DNA from: Myxococcota bacterium
Lineage (GTDB): Bacteria > Myxococcota_A > UBA9160 > UBA4427
Direction: 5' to 3'
Length of the DNA stretch: 64,000 nt
NCBI GenBank assembly: GCA_028278345.1
Contig: JANQEL010000060.1
Span: 1 to 64,000 of the forward strand
Part shown: one piece after another, positions 23,947 to 35,343 of the stretch
How the letters are laid out: every line of letters begins with the position of its first letter
Position numbering within the stretch: position 1 is the first letter of the stretch
Position numbers and translations under genes: made by a program
The notes under the pieces: model-generated
Database searches by the model: none
What the model saw: the letters and a program-made list of their open reading frames with translations, nothing else
What the model was told of the DNA's origin: nothing

Positions 23947-24807
23947 ATGCGTGCGGAGGACTTCGTGAACCGGCAATTCCTGGGAGTGATCTCCCCTTCA
24001 GCGCTCGTCGACGCCCGAAATGCGACCCACCGAGCGGCTCAAGTTCTGGCGGCCGTGGGTGAAACGCACCTCGAACACGAAGCCGATACCAGCCATACGG
24101 CGATGGCCTACGACCCGACGTTGGGAGCGCTGGTCAACGCGAGGCCCATCGAAGACGGTCTCCGCGGTGTTCTATGGCTCGACGATCTGGCGATCGGCGT
24201 GACACGGCGAGATCATGTGGTCGATCGGATCCCACTTTCCGGTCGCACTCTCGATGATGCGTTCGATTGGATGCAAAGGTCGGTTGCGATTCACTCGGAC
24301 GGAGAAAGGCGTGGAGCCCTGCGACGTCCTACGTATCCACTCCCTGACCATGGCCTCGAACACGGGGACGCATTCGATTCCTCGGACCCCGGTTCGATCG
24401 AGTTGGGGAAGTGGTTCCGCTCCGCCCATTCGGCCCTCGAGTCTCTTCCGAGCCATCCAGATGACGGCCCAATCGTGTGTTGGCCACATCACTTCGACCT
24501 GGCGATTCTACGAACGGTCGCGCGCGACGCGAGCGACGTCGCAACGAAGACGATCGGAGTCGGTCTGTCGCCCGGAGACGATCAGATTCCCGAGCCCTAC
24601 TGGTACGTGAACCACTGGCCGACCACCACGCGGGGCACCGGCTCACTCGAACCATTGCCCGTCGGAGAGTGGCACGATGACGGATTCGTCGCCGCGGTGT
24701 TGCGAGGAGGGGAGATCATCGAGGCCAGATCGACGCAGGCCCAGTCCGATGTCGTGGCATCATTTCTCGAGCATGCCATGCGCTCGAGTGAGGAGTTGCT
24801 CTCATGA
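23947..24807 (+). CDS. Unrecognised 286-residue protein translationally coupled to a Rieske-TPP enzyme
   Basis: I do not recognise the family with confidence. Visible traits are a central WPHHFDLAILRTVA segment, then a SPGDDQIPEPYWYVNHWP segment rich in aromatic residues and His, and EWHDDGFVAAVLRGGEII near the end. Similar WPxHFD and SPGD-x-P-E-P-Y motifs occur in uncharacterised bacterial proteins (memory only). There is no signal peptide or membrane helix. The stop overlaps the start of the next gene by ATGA, so the product is probably made in a fixed ratio with the Rieske-TPP protein and may be its partner. The start ATG lacks a clear ribosome site. Confidence 0.6.
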   Translation: MRAEDFVNRQFLGVISPSALVDARNATHRAAQVLAAVGETHLEHEADTSHTAMAYDPTLGALVNARPIEDGLRGVLWLDDLAIGVTRRDHVVDRIPLSGRTLDDAFDWMQRSVAIHSDGERRGALRRPTYPLPDHGLEHGDAFDSSDPGSIELGKWFRSAHSALESLPSHPDDGPIVCWPHHFDLAILRTVARDASDVATKTIGVGLSPGDDQIPEPYWYVNHWPTTTRGTGSLEPLPVGEWHDDGFVAAVLRGGEIIEARSTQAQSDVVASFLEHAMRSSEELLS

Positions 24808-26780
24808 GTCCCGTCCGACCCTCGAGCGAAACCACCTGGAAGAAGGCACTCGACCTCGGCGAACTCGAAGAGGGCCGCGTCAAGTCGGTTACCCTCGATG
24901 GACTGACGGTGTGCATGACGCACTGGGAAGGCCGGTACGGCGCCCTCGACGATCGCTGCCCCCACCAGGGTGGCCCACTGGGAGAGGGTTCGATCGAAAA
25001 CGGTCACCTCCGCTGTCCATGGCATGGTTGGGATTATTGTCCGCTGACGGGCCAACCGCCGGATGGTGGCTATGACGACGGTGTCGCCACCCATCCAGTG
25101 CAGGTGCGCGATGACGGCATCTACGTCGAATTGCCCCTTCGCCTGGAGCGAGATCGCACGGTGTCGGACGTCGTCGTCGAGACGCTTGCGAACTGGGATG
25201 TCCGCTGGGTGTTCGGAATGGTGGGTCACTCGAATCTGAACGTCGCCGAAGCCATTCGTCTTCAACAAGAAGCGGGTTCGATGCGCTACATCGGGATCCG
25301 GCATGAAGGGGCGGCAGCGTTCGCCTGTTCAGCCTATGGCAAACTCACCGGGCGTTCCGCCGCCTGCCTTGCGATCGCCGGGCCGGGGGCCACGAATCTG
25401 CTCACGGGCCTGTGGGATGCGCATGTCGACCGTTCCCCGGTGATCGCTCTGACAGGTCAAGTCGCCACGCAGGTCCTGGGCACCGGTAACTTCCAGGAAC
25501 TCGATCTCAAGGCCGCATACGGTCAAGTCGCCGCGTTCGCGCAACCCGTATTGGCAGACTCGCCACACGCCGAGCTCGCAGGAAGAGCTGTCAAGACGGC
25601 CGTCCTCGAGCGAACCGTTTCGCAGTTGATCTTCCCCGACGAAGTCGCGGGACACGCCAGCGAATCACCTGCGGGTTCGCCCGTTGGCCGCGTCGCTTCA
25701 CTCGAGTCACCACCTCCGGAATCCGAACTCGAACGCGCCGCAGCCGCGCTGAGAGAGGCTCGGCGTCCCGTGATCATCGTGGGGCATGGCGCGCGATTCG
25801 ACATGCCCCGCGTCATCGCATTGGCGGAGGAACTCGGAGCACCGGTTCTCACGACCTTCAAGGCGAAAGGCTTGATTTCCGATCACCATCCCCTCGGCTG
25901 CGGCGTACTCGGTAGGAGTGGTACACCCATCGCGAGTTGGTTCATGAACGAATCCGATCTGCTTCTGGTGCTCGGCGCGAGCTTCTCGAATCACACGGGC
26001 ATCACACCCAAGAAGCGGACGATTCAGATCGATCGCGATCCCATGGCCCTCGCGAAGTTTCATTCCGTGGACATGCCGATCGTCGGGGACCTCGGCGTGG
26101 CGACGGCCCAGCTGCTCGATCGGGTGTCGGGCCAACGCGCTTCAATCGGTCAGGTCGACGAGGTCGCAGCGCGATGGTCGATCTGGCGAAAAGAGAAGGA
26201 GCGCCGTCGAGAGGACGACCGGGGTCGGGGAATCAATTCAGCGGCGCTCTTCGAGGCGCTGACCCGCTGTGTCCCACGTGACGCCATCATGCCCGTCGAT
26301 GTTGGCAACAACACCTATTCGTTCGGACGCTACTTCGAGTGCGCGGAGCAAGCCGTCCTCATGTCCGGCTACCTCGGCTCGATCGGGTTCGCGTTTCCAG
26401 CCGCGCTCGGAGCCTGGTGTGCGACGCAGGAGCAGGGCACTCCGTTCAGTGGTCGTTCGGTCGTCTCGATCTCGGGGGACGGTGGCTTCGGTCAGTATCC
26501 CTTCGAACTGACGACTGCGGTGAAGTACGGAATGAATCTCACCCACGTTCTCCTTCACAATGGTGAACTCGGAAAGATCTCGAAGGAGCAACGATTCGGG
26601 CAATGGCCCGTCTGGGAGACCTCTCTCCACAACCCCGACTTCTCGCAGTACGCCGAGCTGTGCGGTGCCAAGGGAGTGCGAATCGAGTCTCTTGGGAATC
26701 TCGAAGCCGGCCTCAACGAGGGCCTGGAGCATGAGGGCCCTGCGCTCGTCGAGGTCATCTGCGACGCGAATCTCGTGTGA
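24804..26780 (+). CDS. Fusion of Rieske [2Fe-2S] domain and thiamine-diphosphate enzyme
   Basis: The 658-residue protein joins two domains. Residues ~1-112 form a Rieske domain: RCPHQGGPLG (C52, H54) and LRCPWHGWDY (C71, H74), the full ligand set. Residues ~118-655 form a ThDP enzyme of the acetolactate synthase/pyruvate oxidase type: RHEGAAAFACSAYGK with catalytic Glu168, a central domain (ARRPVIIVGHGA, TFKAKGLISDHHPLGCGVLG), and the cofactor motif ISGDGGFGQYPFEL...LLHNGELGK (GDG 558-560, N586). Such enzymes act on 2-oxo acids. The Rieske centre could pass electrons from the ThDP adduct or an oxidation step to a carrier. I know no characterised protein of this layout. Confidence 0.88.
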   Translation: MSPVRPSSETTWKKALDLGELEEGRVKSVTLDGLTVCMTHWEGRYGALDDRCPHQGGPLGEGSIENGHLRCPWHGWDYCPLTGQPPDGGYDDGVATHPVQVRDDGIYVELPLRLERDRTVSDVVVETLANWDVRWVFGMVGHSNLNVAEAIRLQQEAGSMRYIGIRHEGAAAFACSAYGKLTGRSAACLAIAGPGATNLLTGLWDAHVDRSPVIALTGQVATQVLGTGNFQELDLKAAYGQVAAFAQPVLADSPHAELAGRAVKTAVLERTVSQLIFPDEVAGHASESPAGSPVGRVASLESPPPESELERAAAALREARRPVIIVGHGARFDMPRVIALAEELGAPVLTTFKAKGLISDHHPLGCGVLGRSGTPIASWFMNESDLLLVLGASFSNHTGITPKKRTIQIDRDPMALAKFHSVDMPIVGDLGVATAQLLDRVSGQRASIGQVDEVAARWSIWRKEKERRREDDRGRGINSAALFEALTRCVPRDAIMPVDVGNNTYSFGRYFECAEQAVLMSGYLGSIGFAFPAALGAWCATQEQGTPFSGRSVVSISGDGGFGQYPFELTTAVKYGMNLTHVLLHNGELGKISKEQRFGQWPVWETSLHNPDFSQYAELCGAKGVRIESLGNLEAGLNEGLEHEGPALVEVICDANLV

Positions 26781-26810: not shown

Positions 26811-28112
26811 CTAGAACTTCAGCTCGGCCTGCATCCAGACTCGCCAGATGTCGGCCAGTGTGTCCTCTTCGCTCTCGAAGATCGCAGCCTTGGTCAGCAG
26901 GGTGAGGTGTTGATTGATCGGCTTCTTGAGCAGCATGTCGTACTCGTTGCCGAGTTCCTTGCTGTCGTGATCCGAGCGGAAGTTGTGCCAGGTGAAGGCG
27001 CCGCTGAGTCCGCACGGGAGCTTCGGTGCCACGGTGACGAAGAGGTCGCGTAGCCCCTCCGGTCCGCCGTTGGTCGCGGGACCGGCGGCAAAGACGTCGG
27101 CCCAGCCGTTGAACTTGTGCGCGGTCGCTAGCGGCGTCAGGAATTGCTGTTCGCCGTCGTCGCTGCCGAGCATCTCCCAGCCCACGCCAATGGATCCGAG
27201 ATCGCTCTGGGCGAGCTTGGCCTGCGCCATCACGTAGTGGGCGCCGTAGCTCTTGCCCGCCGCGGCGGTCTCGTAGTCGGCGAAATCCGACTGATACGCG
27301 TAACTGCCTTCGTAGATCACCTTCCAAGTCTCGTCGAACGCGTGGTCGCCGGTGAGCCGCAGCCCGTAGCTCGCGGAGGAGAGCGCGTCGGCGTCGACGA
27401 CGTCCAGCAGGTAGACGAAGGCGGCGACGTTCGCGAAGTCGAGCCCCGAGTAGCTGCCGTGAATGAGGTGGGCGTTCGTCTTCAGGTCGCCGAACGCTGC
27501 GGGTTCGGCCTGATCGCTTTCGCCGAAGATGCGCCGCACGTACCGAACATAGCCGTAGGCTGCGTTCGTGTTCTCTACGCCGAGCCCACTCGAAACCAGG
27601 GCCGCATCGTACGTCTGTTCGTTCTGGCGCCACCCGACGTTGCCGACGAAGCGGTCGTCGTCGAGCTTGACGCGCTGTCGGCCCACGATGAACGTCGAAT
27701 CGACTAGATCTTCGTTGCTGTAGGTCAGGGCGGCGCGGTTGACCTCGGTGTTGGTCGGATCCGCGATGGGGGTCTGACCCGTCGCGGGTTCGGTCACCTT
27801 GAAGTACTGCCGCGTTGCGACCGCGGCGGTGTTCTCGGCTTCGATGAACACCGATGCGCCGTGCCAGGGTTTCGTGCCGTATCCGAGGCGCGTGCGCAGG
27901 GTGTAGGCCTCGGATTGCTTCAACTTCGCAGCGCCATCCGGCGCGGCATCCGCGATCTCGATGCGCGCGCGCATGTCGAGGCTGGGCTTTCCATTCGTGA
28001 TCGCGTGCCAGATCGTGCCCTCGTCGTCGTGATCCGCGGCCGTGGCGAGGCTCGCGACCGGGGCTGTGCAGAATACGAACAGGGTCGCGGCAACGGCTCG
28101 ATGGAAACTCAT
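26811..28112 (-). CDS. Outer-membrane porin-like barrel, alginate-export type
   Basis: The 433-residue protein has a signal peptide (cleavage ~ATA-AD, residue 25). The body resembles alginate-export/porin barrels: KPSLDMRARIEIADA, EAYTLRTRLGYGTKPWHGASVFIEAENTAAV, NRAALTYSNEDLVDSTFIVGRQRVKLDDDRFVGNVGWRQNEQTYDAALV, and a C-terminus ADIWRVWMQAELKF with terminal Phe. It is the last gene of the nap-type operon, 6 bp after the ferredoxin gene. Co-location suggests it admits the reductase substrate or releases product across the outer membrane. That is inference; barrels of this fold carry various anions and sugars. Confidence 0.75.
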   Translation of the reverse strand: MSFHRAVAATLFVFCTAPVASLATAADHDDEGTIWHAITNGKPSLDMRARIEIADAAPDGAAKLKQSEAYTLRTRLGYGTKPWHGASVFIEAENTAAVATRQYFKVTEPATGQTPIADPTNTEVNRAALTYSNEDLVDSTFIVGRQRVKLDDDRFVGNVGWRQNEQTYDAALVSSGLGVENTNAAYGYVRYVRRIFGESDQAEPAAFGDLKTNAHLIHGSYSGLDFANVAAFVYLLDVVDADALSSASYGLRLTGDHAFDETWKVIYEGSYAYQSDFADYETAAAGKSYGAHYVMAQAKLAQSDLGSIGVGWEMLGSDDGEQQFLTPLATAHKFNGWADVFAAGPATNGGPEGLRDLFVTVAPKLPCGLSGAFTWHNFRSDHDSKELGNEYDMLLKKPINQHLTLLTKAAIFESEEDTLADIWRVWMQAELKF

Positions 28113-28118
28113 GATGAT

Positions 28119-29102
28119 TCATTCCCCCTTGAGGCCGACCGGCTGGATCGGTGCGGCCATGCGGACCACGCGAAAAGCCTGCGGGGTCGCGATGATGGTG
28201 TCGCTCCAGAGTTCGTCTTGGTAGCGGTATCGGACCTGCACTCCTCGGACCTTACGATCGAGGAGCTGAGCCAGGGCCTCGGCCGCCGTCACGGAAGCGA
28301 CTTCCGCTCGGCGGTCGGGTGCCCCCTTGCAGCGGACGTCTTCGATCTCGGCCGCGGCTTCGATATCGAGAAACAGCCTGCGGAGATCGTCTTCGTCGAG
28401 TTCGGCTTCCCGCAGCTCGGGGAGTTCGATCTCCTGCGGTCCCGCGGTCGAGAGGTCGAGTGCCCTCGTCGTGGGTCGATCGGTATTGGGCAGGATCAGG
28501 ATCGCGTTCTGTGGGGCTGGGCAGACGTGCTGGCAGAAGCCGCAGCCGGTGCAGAGGCGCTCGTTCACCTCGGGCAGGTTGTCGACGAAGTGGATCGCAC
28601 CGGGTACCGGGCAGCGCTCGATGCAGACGCTGCACGTCGTCGAAAGCCGGTTGAGACAATCCATCTGCGAAACCCGCGCCGTGCCGAGCGCTGCGGGTGC
28701 TTCGTCGCGCAGTGCTCCGGTTTCACATGCGGCGATGCACGGCATGTCTTCGCACATGCGACACGGCGAGCGCGCGGGATCGATCATTGGAGTGCCCGTG
28801 GCTTCGCGCATGCGTTCGGGCGCTTCGAAGATCACGTCGTGGGGACACGCCTCGGCGCAGTCGCCGCAGCGCGTGCATGCTTCGAGGAAGTCGACTCCGG
28901 CGACGGCACCCGGTGGGCGCAACAACGCCAAAGCTTCTGCGCCGTGGCCCCGCCTGGGCGTCGCGCCCATCTGCGGGTCGAGCCACGAGATCACATCGGG
29001 AAGCGATTGCCCCGGCTTCGTGACTTCGCCCTCGTACCCCTTCGGCCGCCGCCCCAGGCGTCCGCGCAGGAGATCGCGCCGGCTGATTTCGTCCTTCGCC
29101 AT
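28119..29102 (-). CDS. NapF/NapG-type ferredoxin with four [4Fe-4S] clusters
   Basis: The 327-residue protein has Cys groups CTRCGDCAEACP, CRMCEDMPCIAACE, CLNRLSTTCSVCIERCP and CTGCGFCQHVCPAP, enough for four [4Fe-4S] clusters. The CxMCEDxPC form is typical of NapG, while the N-terminus SRRDLLRGRLGRRPKGY resembles NapF and lacks a Tat hydrophobic core, so a cytoplasmic place is likely. About 120 extra residues follow the clusters. It lies between the duplicated NapB gene and the porin gene. No napH neighbour exists. It may help insert cofactors into NapA or carry electrons. Three tandem 14-bp units precede the start. Confidence 0.8.
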   Translation of the reverse strand: MAKDEISRRDLLRGRLGRRPKGYEGEVTKPGQSLPDVISWLDPQMGATPRRGHGAEALALLRPPGAVAGVDFLEACTRCGDCAEACPHDVIFEAPERMREATGTPMIDPARSPCRMCEDMPCIAACETGALRDEAPAALGTARVSQMDCLNRLSTTCSVCIERCPVPGAIHFVDNLPEVNERLCTGCGFCQHVCPAPQNAILILPNTDRPTTRALDLSTAGPQEIELPELREAELDEDDLRRLFLDIEAAAEIEDVRCKGAPDRRAEVASVTAAEALAQLLDRKVRGVQVRYRYQDELWSDTIIATPQAFRVVRMAAPIQPVGLKGE

Positions 29103-29138
29103 CGTCAGCCCGCCATCGTCAGCCCGCCATCGTCAGCG
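29097..29138 (-). repeat. Three tandem 14-bp units at the napB-like/napF-like junction
   Basis: On the minus strand TGACGATGGCGGGC occurs twice, then TGACGATGGCGAAG. The first unit carries the TGA of the NapB-like gene and the third carries the ATG of the ferredoxin gene. The first two units each encode a three-codon mini-frame ATG-GCG-GGC ended by the next unit's TGA. Confidence 0.85.
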
Positions 29139-29882
29139 GCTCGCGCGAAGCCCGAGCGCACCCTCCGACGGGTGGCACTGCAGGCAGCTGCGTCGATCGG
29201 GGTGTGGCGTTCGCAAGGCTGCGCGTCCTTCGGGGCCGTGACAGGATTCGCAGTTCTCGCGCATCCAGGTCGGGTGCGGAACGGAGGGCGGTGCGCCCAT
29301 GTACGCCTCGGCCCCACTCGTCGGCGAGCGAAGTCCCCTCCAATCCAGCGCCGCTGAAGCAGCGGGGTTCGGGGTGAGCACGGTGAACAGGGCCGAGTCG
29401 GTCACATGGCACTGCGTGCAGCTCGCATACTCGGCGTGGGGTACGCGACTCGCGCTGCGCCGGCCGAGGGTGAAGCCGTCGGCATGGCAGGCCAGGCATT
29501 CGGCGGCTCCACTCGCTCGAACCGGATGGGGAATCACGGGAGGCGCCCCGTCGAAGGCTCGACGCGCAGCGCGATCGAGCACCGCCTCCTCGGCGGGAAC
29601 GTCTTCGCGCTCGTCACGCAGCGCGGTCTCGCTCGCGATCTCCTTCGATGTCGCCCAACCCGACGCATCGACTCCGCCCTCCCACGGCCGACGCTCGAGT
29701 TCGGCGTGGCTTCGAGCAGGCGGAATCTTGCCGGGTTCCGGGCGCTCGCGTAGCGGCGGCTGTTCGGCGCGATAGGTACGGGGTGCCGTACCCGTCGCGA
29801 AGCCGATCGCAACCACGGCCGCTACCGCCGCAATCACCATGAAGACCGCACGCGCCGGTGCCTTGCGAAGCGGATCAGGCAT
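29133..29882 (-). CDS. napB-like: Tetrahaem cytochrome c made of two tandem NapB-like domains
   Basis: The 249-residue protein has one N-terminal hydrophobic segment (FMVIAAVAAVVAIGFATG), probably a signal anchor, then four haem sites: CLACH (129-133), CTQCH (155-159), CESCH (211-215) and CLQCH (233-237). Two copies of a NapB pattern are visible: APPVIPHPV...CLACH...PHAEY..CTQCH and APPSVPHPT...CESCH...PHPDR..CLQCH. NapB, the small subunit of periplasmic nitrate reductase, normally has one such unit with two haems. The duplicated form should carry electrons to NapA over a longer path. The start overlaps the NapA stop by 8 bp. Confidence 0.85.
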   Translation of the reverse strand: MPDPLRKAPARAVFMVIAAVAAVVAIGFATGTAPRTYRAEQPPLRERPEPGKIPPARSHAELERRPWEGGVDASGWATSKEIASETALRDEREDVPAEEAVLDRAARRAFDGAPPVIPHPVRASGAAECLACHADGFTLGRRSASRVPHAEYASCTQCHVTDSALFTVLTPNPAASAALDWRGLRSPTSGAEAYMGAPPSVPHPTWMRENCESCHGPEGRAALRTPHPDRRSCLQCHPSEGALGLRASR

Positions 29883-32289
29883 GGCCGCTCGCGCCGATGC
29901 GCTTCACCCGGGCCGCGCACTTCTTGAAGTCGGGCTGCTTCGAGAACGGATCGTGGGCATCGAGGGTGAGGTCGTTGATGAGGCGCCCCTCGTCGAAGAA
30001 GGGCACGAAGACGGTTCCGCGCGGAGGTGAGCCACGGCCGTCGATCCAAACGGGCAGCTCGATGTCGCCGCGTCGCGTTTCGATCCGCACCACCTCTCCG
30101 TCCTGGATCGACAGGGCTCGCGCATCGTCGCGATGCATCTCGACGTACGCGTTCGGCATGGCGCGTCGCAGGGGCTCGACGCGCATCGTCATGCTTGCGG
30201 TGTGCCAGTGCTCGAGCACGCGGCCGGTGCACAGCCACAGCGGGTAGTCCTCGTCGGGCGCCTCCGGAGGCGCTTCGTAGGGCCGGAACCAGATCTGTGC
30301 GCGGCCGTCCTTCGTCGGTGAATGGTAGAAGTCGTACTCCTCGCCCTTGGCAACGTAGGGATCGTCGAAGCCCGAGAAGCGGAACCGCGTCTCGCGCCAG
30401 GTGCCGTCTTCCTGCTCGACGACTGGCCAGCGCAGGCCCCGCGCCTTCACGTAGACGTCGTAGGGGGCGAGATCCTTGTGCTTGAGCGTGGAGAATTGGC
30501 GGTACTCCTCGAAGAGCACGCGGTCGACGTTGATGTCGCGCCAGCGCGACCACTGCCACACCGGTACCTCGCCGCCATTCTTTCCGGGGAAGCGGAAGAG
30601 GAAGCCGCCGTCCTTGTCCTTCATCGGCTCGAAGCCGCGGTCGAAGAGCCGTCGCGCGACGGCGATCGTCTGCCACACGTCGTCGCGCGCCTGACCGGGC
30701 GGGTCCACCATCTTGAACCACTGTTGGGTGCGGCGCTCGGAGTTGCCGAACATGCCGTTCTTCTCGACCCACATGGCCGAGGGCAGCACCAGGTCGGCGT
30801 CGCGGGTGGTCGGTGTCGGATAGACATCGGAGACGATCAGGAATTTGTCCTCGTCGGCGACGCCGGGATCGAAGAGCTTGTGGCGATTCGGCAGCGTCTG
30901 TCCCGGGTTGGTGACCTGCACCCAGATGGTGGAGATGTCGCCGCCCTCTGCTGCGGGCTTGCACCACTGCTCCCACATCTTCACGGTGTGGTAGCCCGGC
31001 TTCTTGTTGATGCGGCCTTCCGGCAGGTTCCAGATCTCCTCGGCTTCCTTGCGGTGGGGGTCCTTTGCCACCAGACGTCCGCCGGGAAGCAGGTGCGCGA
31101 GGGTGCCGACTTCGCGCGCGGTGCCGCACGCCGAGGGTTGCCCGGTGAGGCTCGTGGGCGCGTCGCCCGGTTGACCGAAATGACCGGACAGCAGATGGAT
31201 CCCGTGGACGAGGGTGTTCATCGCGGTGCCGCGTGTGTGCTGATTCATCCCCATGCACCAAAGGCTCGTGATGCGGATGTCGCGACGACCGAAGAGATCG
31301 CCGAGCATGCGGATGTCCTTCGCCGGGACTCCGGAAATCTCCTCGACCCGCGCCGGGGTGTACTCGGCGATGGCCTGCTTGAACTCTTCGAAGCTGATCG
31401 TCTTGCCGTGCAGGCCGGGCGGATCGCTATCCGCCTTGAACGCGCAGTGCTGCTCGACGAATTCCCTGTCCCAGGTGCCATTGGCGATCAGCAGGTGGAG
31501 GATGCCGTTCGCGACGGCGAGGTCGGTGTGCGGCTTGAACTCGAGGTAGTGCTGCGCGTGGGCGGTCGAACGCGTGCGGCGCGTCGAGATGTCGATGATC
31601 TGGATCTTCTCGCCGCGCGAGCGTCGGTCGATCACGCGGGAGAAGAGCACTGGGTGCATCTCGGCCGGGTTGTTCCCCCAGTTGATCAGGACGTCGCAGT
31701 GATCGAGGTCGTCGTAGCAACCGGCGGGTTCGTCGACGCCATAGGTCGCGAGGAAACCCGTCACCGCCGACGCCATGCAGAGCCGAGCGTTGGGATCGAT
31801 GTGGTTGTTCGCGAGCCCGCCCTTGATGAACTTCTGGGCCGCGTAGCCTTCGGGGATCGTCCATTGGCCACTGCCGTAGATCGCGAAGCCCTTTGGATCC
31901 GCTTCGACGCGGTCGGCCACGATGTCGAGGGCCTCGTCCCAGGAGATTGGAACCTGCTTGCCATTCTTCTTGAGCAGGGGTTGGGTGAGGCGATCCTTTC
32001 CGTAGAGGGCGAGGCCGACGTGGTAGCCCTTCACGCAGAGCAGGCCTCGATTCACGTCCGCTTCGGGATCTCCCGCGATCGCGACGACGCGCCCCTCTTT
32101 GGTGCCCACCTGCACGTGGCAACCGGTTCCGCAGAAGCGACAAGGGGCCTTGTCCCACGAGACGTCAGCGCGGGGCGACGGGGAGGGCGGGTTGGACGCG
32201 CGGGCGTCGCCGGGCTTCAGGCCGTGGGCCGCCGCAGTAGCCGCCGCCATGGCGCTCAACTTCACGAAATTGCGTCGATCGATTTCCAT
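29875..32289 (-). CDS. napA: Periplasmic nitrate reductase catalytic subunit
   Basis: The 804-residue protein has a Tat-type N-terminus (RRNFVKLSAMAAATAAAHGL), a [4Fe-4S] set CRFCGTGC...LLC (C50, C53, C57, C85) and the Mo-ligand Cys171 in ARLCMASAVTGF. The segments MGMNQHTRGTAMNTLVHGIHLLSGHFGQPGDAPTSLTGQPSACGTAREVGTLAH and NRGLLCVKGY are characteristic of NapA. Length is near the usual ~830. It reduces nitrate to nitrite in the periplasm with a bis-MGD molybdenum centre. The preferred ATG at 32289 overlaps the NapD stop (TGATG); a GTG one codon earlier is possible. It lies in an eight-gene minus-strand operon. Confidence 0.93.
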   Translation of the reverse strand: MEIDRRNFVKLSAMAAATAAAHGLKPGDARASNPPSPSPRADVSWDKAPCRFCGTGCHVQVGTKEGRVVAIAGDPEADVNRGLLCVKGYHVGLALYGKDRLTQPLLKKNGKQVPISWDEALDIVADRVEADPKGFAIYGSGQWTIPEGYAAQKFIKGGLANNHIDPNARLCMASAVTGFLATYGVDEPAGCYDDLDHCDVLINWGNNPAEMHPVLFSRVIDRRSRGEKIQIIDISTRRTRSTAHAQHYLEFKPHTDLAVANGILHLLIANGTWDREFVEQHCAFKADSDPPGLHGKTISFEEFKQAIAEYTPARVEEISGVPAKDIRMLGDLFGRRDIRITSLWCMGMNQHTRGTAMNTLVHGIHLLSGHFGQPGDAPTSLTGQPSACGTAREVGTLAHLLPGGRLVAKDPHRKEAEEIWNLPEGRINKKPGYHTVKMWEQWCKPAAEGGDISTIWVQVTNPGQTLPNRHKLFDPGVADEDKFLIVSDVYPTPTTRDADLVLPSAMWVEKNGMFGNSERRTQQWFKMVDPPGQARDDVWQTIAVARRLFDRGFEPMKDKDGGFLFRFPGKNGGEVPVWQWSRWRDINVDRVLFEEYRQFSTLKHKDLAPYDVYVKARGLRWPVVEQEDGTWRETRFRFSGFDDPYVAKGEEYDFYHSPTKDGRAQIWFRPYEAPPEAPDEDYPLWLCTGRVLEHWHTASMTMRVEPLRRAMPNAYVEMHRDDARALSIQDGEVVRIETRRGDIELPVWIDGRGSPPRGTVFVPFFDEGRLINDLTLDAHDPFSKQPDFKKCAARVKRIGASGHA

Positions 32290-32567
32290 CACGTTTCCTC
32301 GCGAGCGTCCGCGGTTGCGGGACGCTCGAGCAGATCTTCGAAGTCGGCGTAGACCACATCGACATCGGCGATGCCGGGTACGCGTCGCAGGCCGTCGATG
32401 CGCGCTTCGGCTTCCTGCTTTCCGGGTGATTCGAGAACGACAGGCCAGCGGTGATCGGCGGGATCGCCGAGTTCGAGATCCGCCGCGTTGCCGAGCCGCG
32501 CTTCGACCCCCTTGCGGGTACTCGTCGCCTGGTCTTCGAGTACCAGGACCATTCCCAGGATCGGCAT
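32289..32567 (-). CDS. napD: NapD-like Tat-signal chaperone
   Basis: The 92-residue protein has the small ferredoxin-like fold expected of NapD: MPILGMVLVLE at the first strand, WPVVLESPGKQEAEARIDGLRRVPGIADVDVVYADFEDLLE with the GVxxxxVVY-type last strand. NapD binds the Tat signal of NapA and holds it during cofactor loading. Position fits: it lies directly between the NrfD-like gene and napA, overlapping both by TGATG. The sequence is divergent from enteric NapD, so naming rests on length, motif and place. Confidence 0.75.
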   Translation of the reverse strand: MPILGMVLVLEDQATSTRKGVEARLGNAADLELGDPADHRWPVVLESPGKQEAEARIDGLRRVPGIADVDVVYADFEDLLERPATADAREET

Positions 32568-33841
32568 CAGGTGTCCCTCCCGTTGCCGAGGCTCATGCGA
32601 CCCGTGAGCGCACGACTCGCGACCTTCACGCTGATCGTGAACAGGCCCAGGCCCATCGCCCAGATCCCCGCCGTCACCTTCCACTCGGTCAGGCTCGGCA
32701 CGTATTCCACGATCTCGTGCATCGTGCTGGGCACGAAGCCGGGGACGATCATCCCCATGCCCTTTTCGATCCACACGCCGGTGAAGGTCATCATGCAGGC
32801 CAACACGACCCAGTTCTGGTTCGCACGCGTGATCGGGCTCAACAAGAGTATCGCGGCCGCGACGTTGAGTGTGATCGCAGTCCAGATCCACGGCACCAGC
32901 GCGGCCTTCCCGTCGATCCCGAAGTAGAGGTAGTGGGCCGCGGCGGCGTGGGAGCCCCCGGTGTACATCTGGGTGAAGACCTCGGCGCCGAGCAGGAAGA
33001 GATTGATCCAGATCGTGACGCGCAGGATCGAGGTCAGGCGGTCGATCGCGCCCTGGGGCACGTCGAGCTTCATGATCCGGCGGATCACACCGAGCGCGAT
33101 GATTAGGAAGGCCGGTCCGGTGACGAACGCCGAGGCGATGAAGCGCGGTGCAATGATCGCGTCGTTCCAGAAGGGTCGCGAACCCAGGCCCTGATAGAGG
33201 AAGGCCGTCACCGTGTGGATCGAGATGGCCCAGACCACGGAGACGAAGACGAAGGGGATGTACCAGCGCGGGTTCAGCGGCTTGCCGATGTAGCGCGAAT
33301 AGACCATGTAACCGGTGATGTGCAGATTCAGCAGCAGGTAGCCGTTGAGCACGAGCACGTCCCAGGTCAGCATCGACATCGGCCAGTGGAAGCGGCCGAT
33401 GAACGGGATCATGTGCCACAGCCGCTCGGGTCGGCCCATGTCGACGATCACGAAGGCGAGGCAGACCGCGATCGCCGAGATGGCGAGCAGTTCGCCGAAG
33501 ATCACCACCTCGTGCATGTCCTGGTCGTCGTAGAGATAGGCGGGGATCACCATCATCACGCCGCCAGCCGCGAGGCCCACGCCGAAGGTGAAGTTCGCGA
33601 TGTAGAGCCCCCACGAGACGTGGTCCGTCATGTTCGTGAGGACCATCCCATCGGCCATCTGGTTGGCCCAGCCGTTCAGGCCCACCAGGGCGATCGCGGT
33701 GAGGATGGTCATCCAGGCGTAGAACGCGGGGCCGCTATCGAAGGAGACCTTCACGCACTCCCACAGGAAACGCGGATAGGTGACGAGGTGGGAGTCGTCG
33801 TCGGGTGCGCTCGGGCGCGGAAGATGCGATTCGACGGCCAT
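32567..33841 (-). CDS. NrfD/PsrC-family integral membrane quinol-interacting subunit
   Basis: The 424-residue membrane protein has about ten helices (FYAWMTILTAIALVGLNGW, WGLYIANFTFGVGLAAGGVMMVIPAYL, VVIFGELLAISAIAVCLAFVIVDMGRPERLWHM, IPFVFVSVVWAISIHTVTAFLYQGLGSRPFWNDAIIAPRFIASAFVTGPAFLIIAL, TGVWIEKGMGMIVPGFVPS). The WGLYI, DMGRPER and RPFWNDAIIAPRFIASAF segments are NrfD/DsrP/ActC-type. These proteins exchange electrons between the quinone pool and a periplasmic ferredoxin subunit. The ferredoxin gene lies 7 bp upstream. As no NapC or NapH is present, it is the best candidate for the quinol dehydrogenase of this operon. Confidence 0.88.
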   Translation of the reverse strand: MAVESHLPRPSAPDDDSHLVTYPRFLWECVKVSFDSGPAFYAWMTILTAIALVGLNGWANQMADGMVLTNMTDHVSWGLYIANFTFGVGLAAGGVMMVIPAYLYDDQDMHEVVIFGELLAISAIAVCLAFVIVDMGRPERLWHMIPFIGRFHWPMSMLTWDVLVLNGYLLLNLHITGYMVYSRYIGKPLNPRWYIPFVFVSVVWAISIHTVTAFLYQGLGSRPFWNDAIIAPRFIASAFVTGPAFLIIALGVIRRIMKLDVPQGAIDRLTSILRVTIWINLFLLGAEVFTQMYTGGSHAAAAHYLYFGIDGKAALVPWIWTAITLNVAAAILLLSPITRANQNWVVLACMMTFTGVWIEKGMGMIVPGFVPSTMHEIVEYVPSLTEWKVTAGIWAMGLGLFTISVKVASRALTGRMSLGNGRDT

Positions 33842-33848
33842 CGTTGCC

Positions 33849-34748
33849 TCAGTCGAAGAAGTAGAAGAAGCGCGGTCGGGTCGCGAGTTCTTCCTTCAGT
33901 ACGAACACGCGCTTGTTGTCGAGTACCCAGCGGATCGGCGAATCCGGATCGAGCAGGTTGCCGAACACACGTGCGCCGGTGGGGCAGGCCTCGGCGCAAG
34001 CGGGGAGCTTTCCCTTGCGCGTGCGGTGGAGGCAGAAGTGGCACTTCTCCATCACTCCCTGCGGCCGCACGCGATTCGAGAGGTAACCCTGGTCGGGATT
34101 GATCTCTTCGGCGTCGATCTCGGGCTTCGTCCAGTTGAAGCGTCTTGCGTGGTAGGGGCACGCGGCCTCGCAGTAGCGGCAGCCGATGCACCAGTCGTAG
34201 TCGACCACGACGATACCGTCCTCTTCCTTCCACGTGGCCTCGACCGGGCACACGGAGACACAGGGTGCCGAGTCGCACTGCTGACACTGGACCGGCATGT
34301 AGTACTTGCCCGGTGCGGGCACCGCGTGGTCGTAAGTGGTGTTTGCGTGCTCGAAGTCGAAGCTCCCCTGGTCCATCTCGAATACGCGGATGTAGCTCTG
34401 GTTGCTGGCCCGATCGTGGTTGTTCTCCACATGGCAGGCTTCCGCGCACTTGCGGCAGCCGTTGCAGACCGAGAGGTTGAGGGCGTAGCCGAACTGCACG
34501 CCGGGGATGGGCTTGTCGTCGGAGACCGAGACGTGCGCACCGCGCTCTTCGAGGGTGTCGCGCTCGACGCGACGGAGCACCTGCTCGATCTCGCCGGGGG
34601 AGAGTTCGCGATAGTGGCGCTGCAGGAACTCGTCGAGGCTGATGTCGGCGGTGAAGCGCTTGATCGGCTCCATCGCCTTGGCGAAGGCGGCGGCTCCGAG
34701 GGTGGCGCCGATCCCCGCGATGGCGGTACGCCGGGTGATGTCACTCAT
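33849..34748 (-). CDS. Tat-type four-cluster ferredoxin (DsrO/NrfC/HybA-like)
   Basis: The 299-residue protein begins with a Tat-like segment TRRTAIAGIGATLGAAAFAKA. Four Cys groups follow: CNGCRKCAEACH (95-106), CQQCDSAPCVSVCP (155-168), CIGCRYCEAACPYHARRFNW (187-198) and CHFCLHRTRKGKLPACAEACPTGAR (236-255). This matches periplasmic ferredoxins that pair with NrfD-like membrane proteins. It should relay electrons between the NrfD-like subunit and the tetrahaem cytochrome or NapB-like protein. The segment before the clusters (~residues 30-90) is longer than in NrfC. It overlaps the cytochrome gene by 8 bp and lies 7 bp before the NrfD-like gene. Confidence 0.9.
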   Translation of the reverse strand: MSDITRRTAIAGIGATLGAAAFAKAMEPIKRFTADISLDEFLQRHYRELSPGEIEQVLRRVERDTLEERGAHVSVSDDKPIPGVQFGYALNLSVCNGCRKCAEACHVENNHDRASNQSYIRVFEMDQGSFDFEHANTTYDHAVPAPGKYYMPVQCQQCDSAPCVSVCPVEATWKEEDGIVVVDYDWCIGCRYCEAACPYHARRFNWTKPEIDAEEINPDQGYLSNRVRPQGVMEKCHFCLHRTRKGKLPACAEACPTGARVFGNLLDPDSPIRWVLDNKRVFVLKEELATRPRFFYFFD

Positions 34749-35343
34749 GGTTTGGGCCTTCCTCCGTCGTCTGCTTGCTCGGAAGTGGCATGAAGCGGTC
34801 GTTCGGCGGCGGTGCGGGCATCACGAGAGGATACGCGGGTGCGTGCGCACGGTGGCACGCCACGCAGCTGTTCCGGATCCACGGCCCCTTGCTGCGATCC
34901 CAGTAGCCGCGTCCCCCGCCATGACTTCCCTTGTTGAAGTCGCGCAGTTTCGGACCGTGGCACTGACCGCAGAGTTCGAGCACGTCTCCCATCGCCACGC
35001 TCTCACCGTGAGCGAGGCGAAGCCTCGTGAGGTCTTCGGGATCGTGGCAGCTCTCGCATCGGAGCTTGCCGTGCTCGATTTCGATGCCCGCGTGGAAGTC
35101 GTCGGGCACTTCGTTCTTGCGCGCGAGTGCTCCCTCATCGCCCGGTGCGTGACAGGTGACGCAGGCGATCCCTACCGAGGCTCCCTCGGCATCGCGCAGC
35201 CCCGTGTCGACAGTCCCGAGCGAAGGCGGGTTGCGGATTTCGACGGGGTGCAGTGGAGGCTGGACGCCGGGCGACCCGTCGTCGGCAAGAGAAGTGGCCG
35301 CGAGCCCAGCGATCGCAAGCGTCATCCAGGATCGTCGCAACAT
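34741..35343 (-). CDS. Tetrahaem c-type cytochrome, first gene of the nap-type operon
   Basis: The 200-residue protein has a signal peptide (WMTLAIAGLAATSLA) and four haem sites: CVTCH (61-65), CESCH (96-100), CGQCH (125-129) and CVACH (160-164). Further His residues (H32, H84, H91, H112, H141, H167) could be distal ligands. It is too short to be NapC/NrfH and has no membrane anchor apart from the signal. It resembles small multihaem subunits that go with NrfD/Fe-S modules, such as NapM- or Hmc-type cytochromes. The ATG at 35343 is chosen because the signal peptide starts there. It probably takes electrons from the ferredoxin subunit. Confidence 0.85.
   Translation of the reverse strand: MLRRSWMTLAIAGLAATSLADDGSPGVQPPLHPVEIRNPPSLGTVDTGLRDAEGASVGIACVTCHAPGDEGALARKNEVPDDFHAGIEIEHGKLRCESCHDPEDLTRLRLAHGESVAMGDVLELCGQCHGPKLRDFNKGSHGGGRGYWDRSKGPWIRNSCVACHRAHAPAYPLVMPAPPPNDRFMPLPSKQTTEEGPNHE

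Follow-up and report, generated by a model that had tools for sequence, protein, structure and literature searches.

A widespread periplasmic nitrate reductase operon with a DsrJOP-like module as its putative quinol dehydrogenase

Gene organization of the locus

The window, a 64,000-nucleotide stretch of DNA from a Myxococcota bacterium, lies on a contig of 81.8 kb; the draft genome from which it comes has 7.26 Mb, with 96.8% completeness and 5.9% contamination. Using a list of its open reading frames together with Pfam and NCBIfam, we identified a minus-strand operon of eight genes (35343-26811), which encode, in this order, a tetrahaem cytochrome c, a ferredoxin, an NrfD-type protein, NapD, NapA, a double NapB, a NapF/G-like protein, and a porin. 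Adjacent frames are separated by 6-30 bases or, in most cases, overlap by 1-8 bases. All eight genes of the Nap/NrfD operon described in the original prediction were confirmed by reading frames and family matches, and the gene content bears out its claim that the operon lacks napC and napH. An Rfam search of the window returned no families.

The catalytic subunit NapA (29875..32289, with an alternative in-frame GTG at 32292) scored 905.8 bits against the NCBIfam model NF010055 (cut-off 904) and 873.9 bits against TIGR01706, below the cut-off of 930.6. Its best PDB matches were the nitrate reductases 2nya (E=1e-217), 3ml1, and 1ogy, and it keeps the residues expected of Nap, namely the Mo-ligand Cys172 and the cluster cysteines of the CxxCxxxC motif. 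In the tree, it grouped with NapA and not with another kind of reductase, within a clade that sits on a long branch apart from E. coli-type NapA. The Mo-ligand cysteine is present in 61 of the 63 members of this clade, and 155 columns that are at least 97% invariant within it, including those of the cluster cysteines, hold the residue found in E. coli NapA. Two divergent relatives of NapA, at loci L234 and L235 (genomes G200 and G215), have Ser or Ala in place of the Mo-ligand cysteine. Their gene clusters also encode a distant NrfD, a NapB homologue, and a cytochrome and ferredoxin of the kind seen in the window operon; they possibly represent a different reductase derived from the window-type Nap.

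The dihaem NapB partner of Nap systems occurs here as a tandem duplication. This tetrahaem protein (29133..29882; Pfam NapB, E=3e-7) has a hydrophobic N-terminus as a probable membrane anchor and two PPxxPH..CxxCH..H..CxQCH repeats, with eight His residues invariant in 118 aligned rows, as expected for the double NapB that had been predicted. A sequence search of the PDB with it gave no matches.

Immediately before napA, and overlapping both of its neighbours, lies a frame for a NapD-like maturation chaperone (32289..32567) that is retained in close relatives; its Pfam NapD score of 22.9 bits (E=9e-5) is short of the cut-off of 28. The NapF/G-like four-cluster ferredoxin (28119..29102) matched the NCBIfam models NapG (108 bits) and NapF (58 bits), both below cut-off, and the same type of gene was found in relatives. 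As read from the sequence, its core resembles NapG and its N-terminus resembles NapF (SRRDLLRGR); since this N-terminus has no hydrophobic stretch, the protein is probably cytoplasmic. Its C-terminal domain of about 90 residues (28158..28424) belongs to a new conserved family, with no counterpart in Pfam or NCBIfam, which is found fused or as a separate gene (for example L093:13165-13419, L098:12607-12873, and L216:7239-7505) and has its own gene in many relatives. It was present in 102 of 122 loci of the window Nap type and in three loci that have the cytochrome/ferredoxin/membrane protein module only; a Tyr and an Asp are invariant, and a Trp, Gln, Thr, and Arg are nearly so. An AlphaFold model of the domain was of moderate quality (pLDDT 74, pTM 0.58), and a fold search with this model gave no significant PDB match. 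The last gene encodes an outer-membrane porin of the Alginate_exp family (26811..28112; Pfam E=3e-6). Because a homologue lies near the Nap system in just a few relatives, the porin is not a constant component; it is a possible entry route for anions, and its membership in the system is uncertain.

The three-gene module is DsrJOP-like

The first gene of the operon encodes a periplasmic cytochrome c (34741..35343) with a signal-like N-terminal stretch and four CXXCH motifs, in place of the trihaem DsrJ; the cytochrome of the module is tetrahaem in nearly all relatives. An alignment of 52 sequences revealed four other invariant His residues besides those of the four motifs, so the haems are apparently all bis-His ligated and the cytochrome would be purely an electron carrier. 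A fold search with a model of the cytochrome, built without haems, gave no significant PDB match. The second gene product (33849..34748) is a ferredoxin with a twin-arginine N-terminus and four [4Fe-4S] sites, whose best NCBIfam model was DsrO at 187 bits, slightly below the cut-off of 200. Of its 16 cysteines, 15 are conserved throughout the 152 aligned rows, and the remaining one occurs in 82% of them.

The third gene product (32567..33841), an integral membrane protein and the proposed quinol dehydrogenase subunit, matched the NCBIfam model DsrP at 408 bits (cut-off 350), and the second-best model, QrcD, at 37 bits. Calisto and Pereira tabulated 20 residues of D. vulgaris DsrP1 (PMC8076601), and we compared these with 105 Nap-linked homologues. 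The quinone-site residues Y80, D134, S156, and D161 and the gate residue K360 of the window protein (Y52, D106, S124, D129, and the gate lysine in D. vulgaris DsrP1 numbering) are invariant in all 105. As for the remaining 15 channel residues, 12 are retained in at least 93% of the homologues, T194 is mostly Ser or Thr (Asp in the window protein), and R152 and K162 are replaced. As the DsrP reference, we used dsr-locus sequences from the window's phylum (L157-L162) in lieu of named sulfate reducers. The four of these that were compared have 18-19 of the 20 residues with matching spacing, and one locus, L162, encodes DsrM, DsrK, a trihaem DsrJ, DsrO, DsrP, and DsrC, as read from the translations.

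The tree of the NrfD-type subunit that the original prediction had called for placed the Nap-linked proteins in a DsrP-like clade distinct from the dsr-locus DsrP, which form a separate, fully supported clade of their own. The window-type module is likewise a single clade in the module tree (support 100/100). Other families fitted poorly. The NrfC model gave 118 bits against a cut-off of 378 and the NrfD model was unmatched; ActC structures of alternative complex III matched at just 21-36 bits, and the ORF list and Pfam showed no ActA, ActB, ActD, or ActE gene in the operon. Model scores and the tree together rule out an Act, Psr, Qrc, or Nrf type for the membrane subunit. The kinship with Psr- or Act-type complexes that had been suggested for the module must therefore be replaced by kinship with DsrJOP. 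Like DsrJOP of the DsrMKJOP complex, which is known from sulfate reducers, the module consists of a periplasmic cytochrome, a four-cluster ferredoxin, and a DsrP-type protein that keeps the quinone-site residues, with the genes in the same order. It differs from DsrMKJOP in that its cytochrome has four bis-His haems where DsrJ has three haems, its ferredoxin scores below the DsrO cut-off, genes for DsrM and DsrK are missing from the operon (ORF list, Pfam), its partner is NapA, and its DsrP-like protein belongs to a separate clade.

Linkage of the module with napA

The neighbourhoods of NapA homologues, whose survey had been proposed with the original prediction, were compared in the 80 best genome relatives, with NapA 67-85% identical to that of the window. 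They belong to Myxococcota, Planctomycetota, Verrucomicrobiota, Acidobacteriota, Sumerlaeota, Eiseniibacteriota, and unplaced metagenome-assembled genomes (MAGs). In 75 of them the contig extends at least 1.4 kb upstream of napA, and in all 75 the cytochrome and ferredoxin genes lie beside it; the membrane protein gene is also visible in 70 and is lost to the contig end in the remaining five. In the other five of the 80, the contig stops within 0.9 kb of napA. In 58 of the 75, the module and napA are divergently oriented; in 17 they are colinear.

We also drew 294 Planctomycetota genomes evenly, 56 of which had a NapA match. Where NapA was about 58% identical or more, all 26 uncut loci have the module, or a truncated part of it, next to napA; below about 58% identity, 7 of 30 do. 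Because the layout is shared by all close relatives that could be assessed, in several phyla, the neighbourhood is conserved far beyond chance, and its recurrence in the relatives and the Planctomycetota sample rules out a fortuitous arrangement. For one NapA lineage in Planctomycetota, about 48-54% identical (L297, L298, L301, L302, L304-L306, L308, and L310), neither the module nor NapC or NapGH was detected nearby.

A DsrP-type protein was found in 113 of 379 genomes of the window's phylum. The 80 DsrP-type loci retrieved comprise 6 dsr loci, 38 beside a window-type NapA, 4 beside an E. coli-type NapA, and 32 in which napA was not visible in the stretch, some of them on cut contigs. The relative, Planctomycetota, and DsrP-type locus sets partly overlap, so that these counts are not independent. 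Related modules also adjoin E. coli-type NapA, often with NapGH, both in the window's phylum (L029, L031, L038, L164, L185, and L224) and in Planctomycetota (L307 and L314); these modules fall on separate branches of their tree. Since related modules adjoin other NapA lineages, the pairing with Nap has recurred, and the module seems to have joined Nap on several occasions, in one of which it apparently became the only donor.

Several module copies had no napA nearby. One lies beside 10- and 12-haem cytochromes (L223), another close to apparent cytochrome oxidase genes (L221), and three beside a gene for the small domain described above (L202, L208, and L216); L230 holds a further related copy. 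The module looks like a plug-in that serves several acceptors.

Absence of the usual quinol donors

Nap systems usually, not universally, have NapC or NapGH as the electron donor. The draft genome of the window contains no member of the NapC/NrfH family, and the one NapH above cut-off is encoded together with a NapG-like gene beside nosD and nosZ. This cluster (L040, C185:68000-84000 of the same genome) carries a Sec-dependent, clade II type nosZ, nosD, and the NapGH-like pair. A NapC or NapGH elsewhere in the genome, which would have refuted the original prediction if it served NapA, was therefore found in no place that suggests service to this NapA, and the position of NapH beside nosZ disfavours such a role. 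In addition, neither NapC nor NapH was found in the retrieved stretches of 122 window-type loci (duplicates between collections included), and NapH was over cut-off in none of 50 relatives' genomes. NapC-family matches in these 50 exceeded 200 bits in two, ranged from 20 to 65 bits in 38, and were lacking in 10; the weak ones may be NrfH or different multihaem proteins. In genome G080, which holds the close relative L044, a strong NapC-family gene is found away from the Nap locus. NrfA-family matches in the window's genome were weak, and no convincing NrfA or NirK was found there.

Proposed electron route and its alternatives

From these sequence comparisons, we propose that the operon probably represents a Nap subtype in which a DsrJOP-like quinol dehydrogenase takes the place of NapC or NapGH. 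The quinol dehydrogenase role, already put forward in the original prediction, is the best-supported reading of the module, given its linkage with napA, the lack of NapC and NapH, the quinone-site residues, and the bis-His cytochromes. The DsrP-like protein would oxidise menaquinol. Electrons would then cross the DsrO-like protein by way of its four clusters, reach the tetrahaem cytochrome, and flow through the four haems of the membrane-anchored double NapB into NapA, whose cluster and molybdenum site would receive them for the periplasmic reduction of nitrate to nitrite. On the cytoplasmic side, maturation may be served by NapD together with the NapF/G-like protein and the 90-residue domain. 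Stand-alone cytochrome/ferredoxin/NrfD modules are known quinol:cytochrome reductases (PMC11434368), and SirCD partly substitutes for CymA in Shewanella (PMC4954811), with nitrate as an exception (PMC11434368). Against this reading, modules exist without napA nearby, and a draft genome with 5.9% contamination could miss a gene.

By analogy, the DsrP-like subunit may couple menaquinol oxidation to proton movement and so build a proton motive force, although we hold this somewhat short of an even call. NrfD-type subunits have been proposed as ion translocators (PMC8076601), and QrcABCD is described as electrogenic (PMC13059093). If such translocation is valid here, the window-type Nap would conserve energy.

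A less probable reading is that the module and NapA cooperate as an electron overflow valve for redox balancing in aerobic growth and not in anaerobic nitrate respiration. Cultured Planctomycetes and myxobacteria, generally known as aerobes, account for several of the carriers; cultured hosts among the relatives include Rhodopirellula, Archangium, Pyxidicoccus, and Pelagicoccus. A Novipirellula reported to be strictly aerobic has a napA of unspecified type, and its authors saw no support for anaerobic respiration (PMC12910023). On the other hand, the clade II nosZ in the window's genome suggests denitrification steps, and a deep-sea planctomycete induces napAB, again of unspecified type, with nitrate (PMC10945688).

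It is improbable that another donor, such as a bc1-type complex, the NapGH linked to nos, or, in genomes that have it, NrfH, feeds NapA while the module serves a different acceptor. The NapGH-like pair, the weak NapC-family matches in 38 of the 50 relatives, and the module-only loci would fit this idea, but the location of NapH in the nosZ/nosD cluster, its absence over cut-off from all 50 relatives, and the inseparability of the module and napA across phyla argue against it. More improbable still is a substrate other than nitrate for the window clade, because the long branch, the match to one of two NapA models, and the cysteine-less L234 and L235 are outweighed by the residues shared with E. 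coli NapA, the nearly universal Mo-ligand cysteine, the nitrate reductases as top PDB matches, and the NapD and NapB homologues in the operon.

Relation to known systems

The proposed Nap fed by a DsrJOP-like module shares NapA, NapD, a NapB-type cytochrome, and a NapF/G-type ferredoxin with NapFDAGHBC of E. coli, NapMADGH, and NapEDABC. It differs in lacking NapC and NapH, in the duplication of NapB to a tetrahaem form, in the DsrJOP-like module, and in the extra 90-residue domain. In Thermosulfurimonas, NapMADGH is likewise without NapC, but it includes NapGH (PMC5276818). Cbc4 (CbcSTU) of Geobacter and SirCD of Shewanella, which we liken to the module by their description, are likewise cytochrome/ferredoxin/NrfD-type quinol dehydrogenases, stand-alone and not described with Nap (PMC11434368). 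NrfBCD of E. coli follows a shared logic, with electrons passing from NrfD through NrfC and a multihaem cytochrome to a periplasmic reductase (PMC12285233), but its NrfD falls far outside on the tree and its partner is NrfA, not NapA.

The literature, mostly without subscription titles, describes Nap with NapC, NapGH, or NapMADGH, and the NrfD review PMC8076601 leaves Nap unmentioned. A cytochrome/4Fe4S/NrfD cluster near Nap was noted in the planctomycete MAGs OFTM8 and OFTM33 (PMC10732223), and MAGs of the same names hold our loci L090 and L091; that study links its cluster to an Act-like cluster and Nxr, without the DsrP type, the constancy, or the missing NapC and NapGH. An earlier description of a Nap with a DsrJOP-like donor may exist elsewhere in the subscription literature. 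The window-type Nap is conserved and hardly described, and occurs in many Myxococcota, Planctomycetota, and other bacteria. The layout is indeed outside the textbook types in having neither NapC nor NapGH, as originally noted, but it is a widespread subtype and not a peculiarity of one genome.

According to a 2025 review, how NapC is replaced in organisms without it is less understood, and another protein of the nap operon is suspected (PMC12285233). The window-type Nap offers a concrete donor candidate for NapA in such organisms, connects a module known from sulfur respiration with nitrogen cycling, and makes energy conservation by a Nap testable. If the proposed coupling is true, a large share of Myxococcota and Planctomycetota would gain proton motive force from Nap, unlike the textbook NapC-fed enzyme.

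Elsewhere in the window, on the plus strand (24804-26780), a single 658-residue frame, as read from its translation, apparently fuses a ferredoxin domain of the Rieske type with an acetolactate synthase-type thiamine-diphosphate enzyme, an unusual combination.
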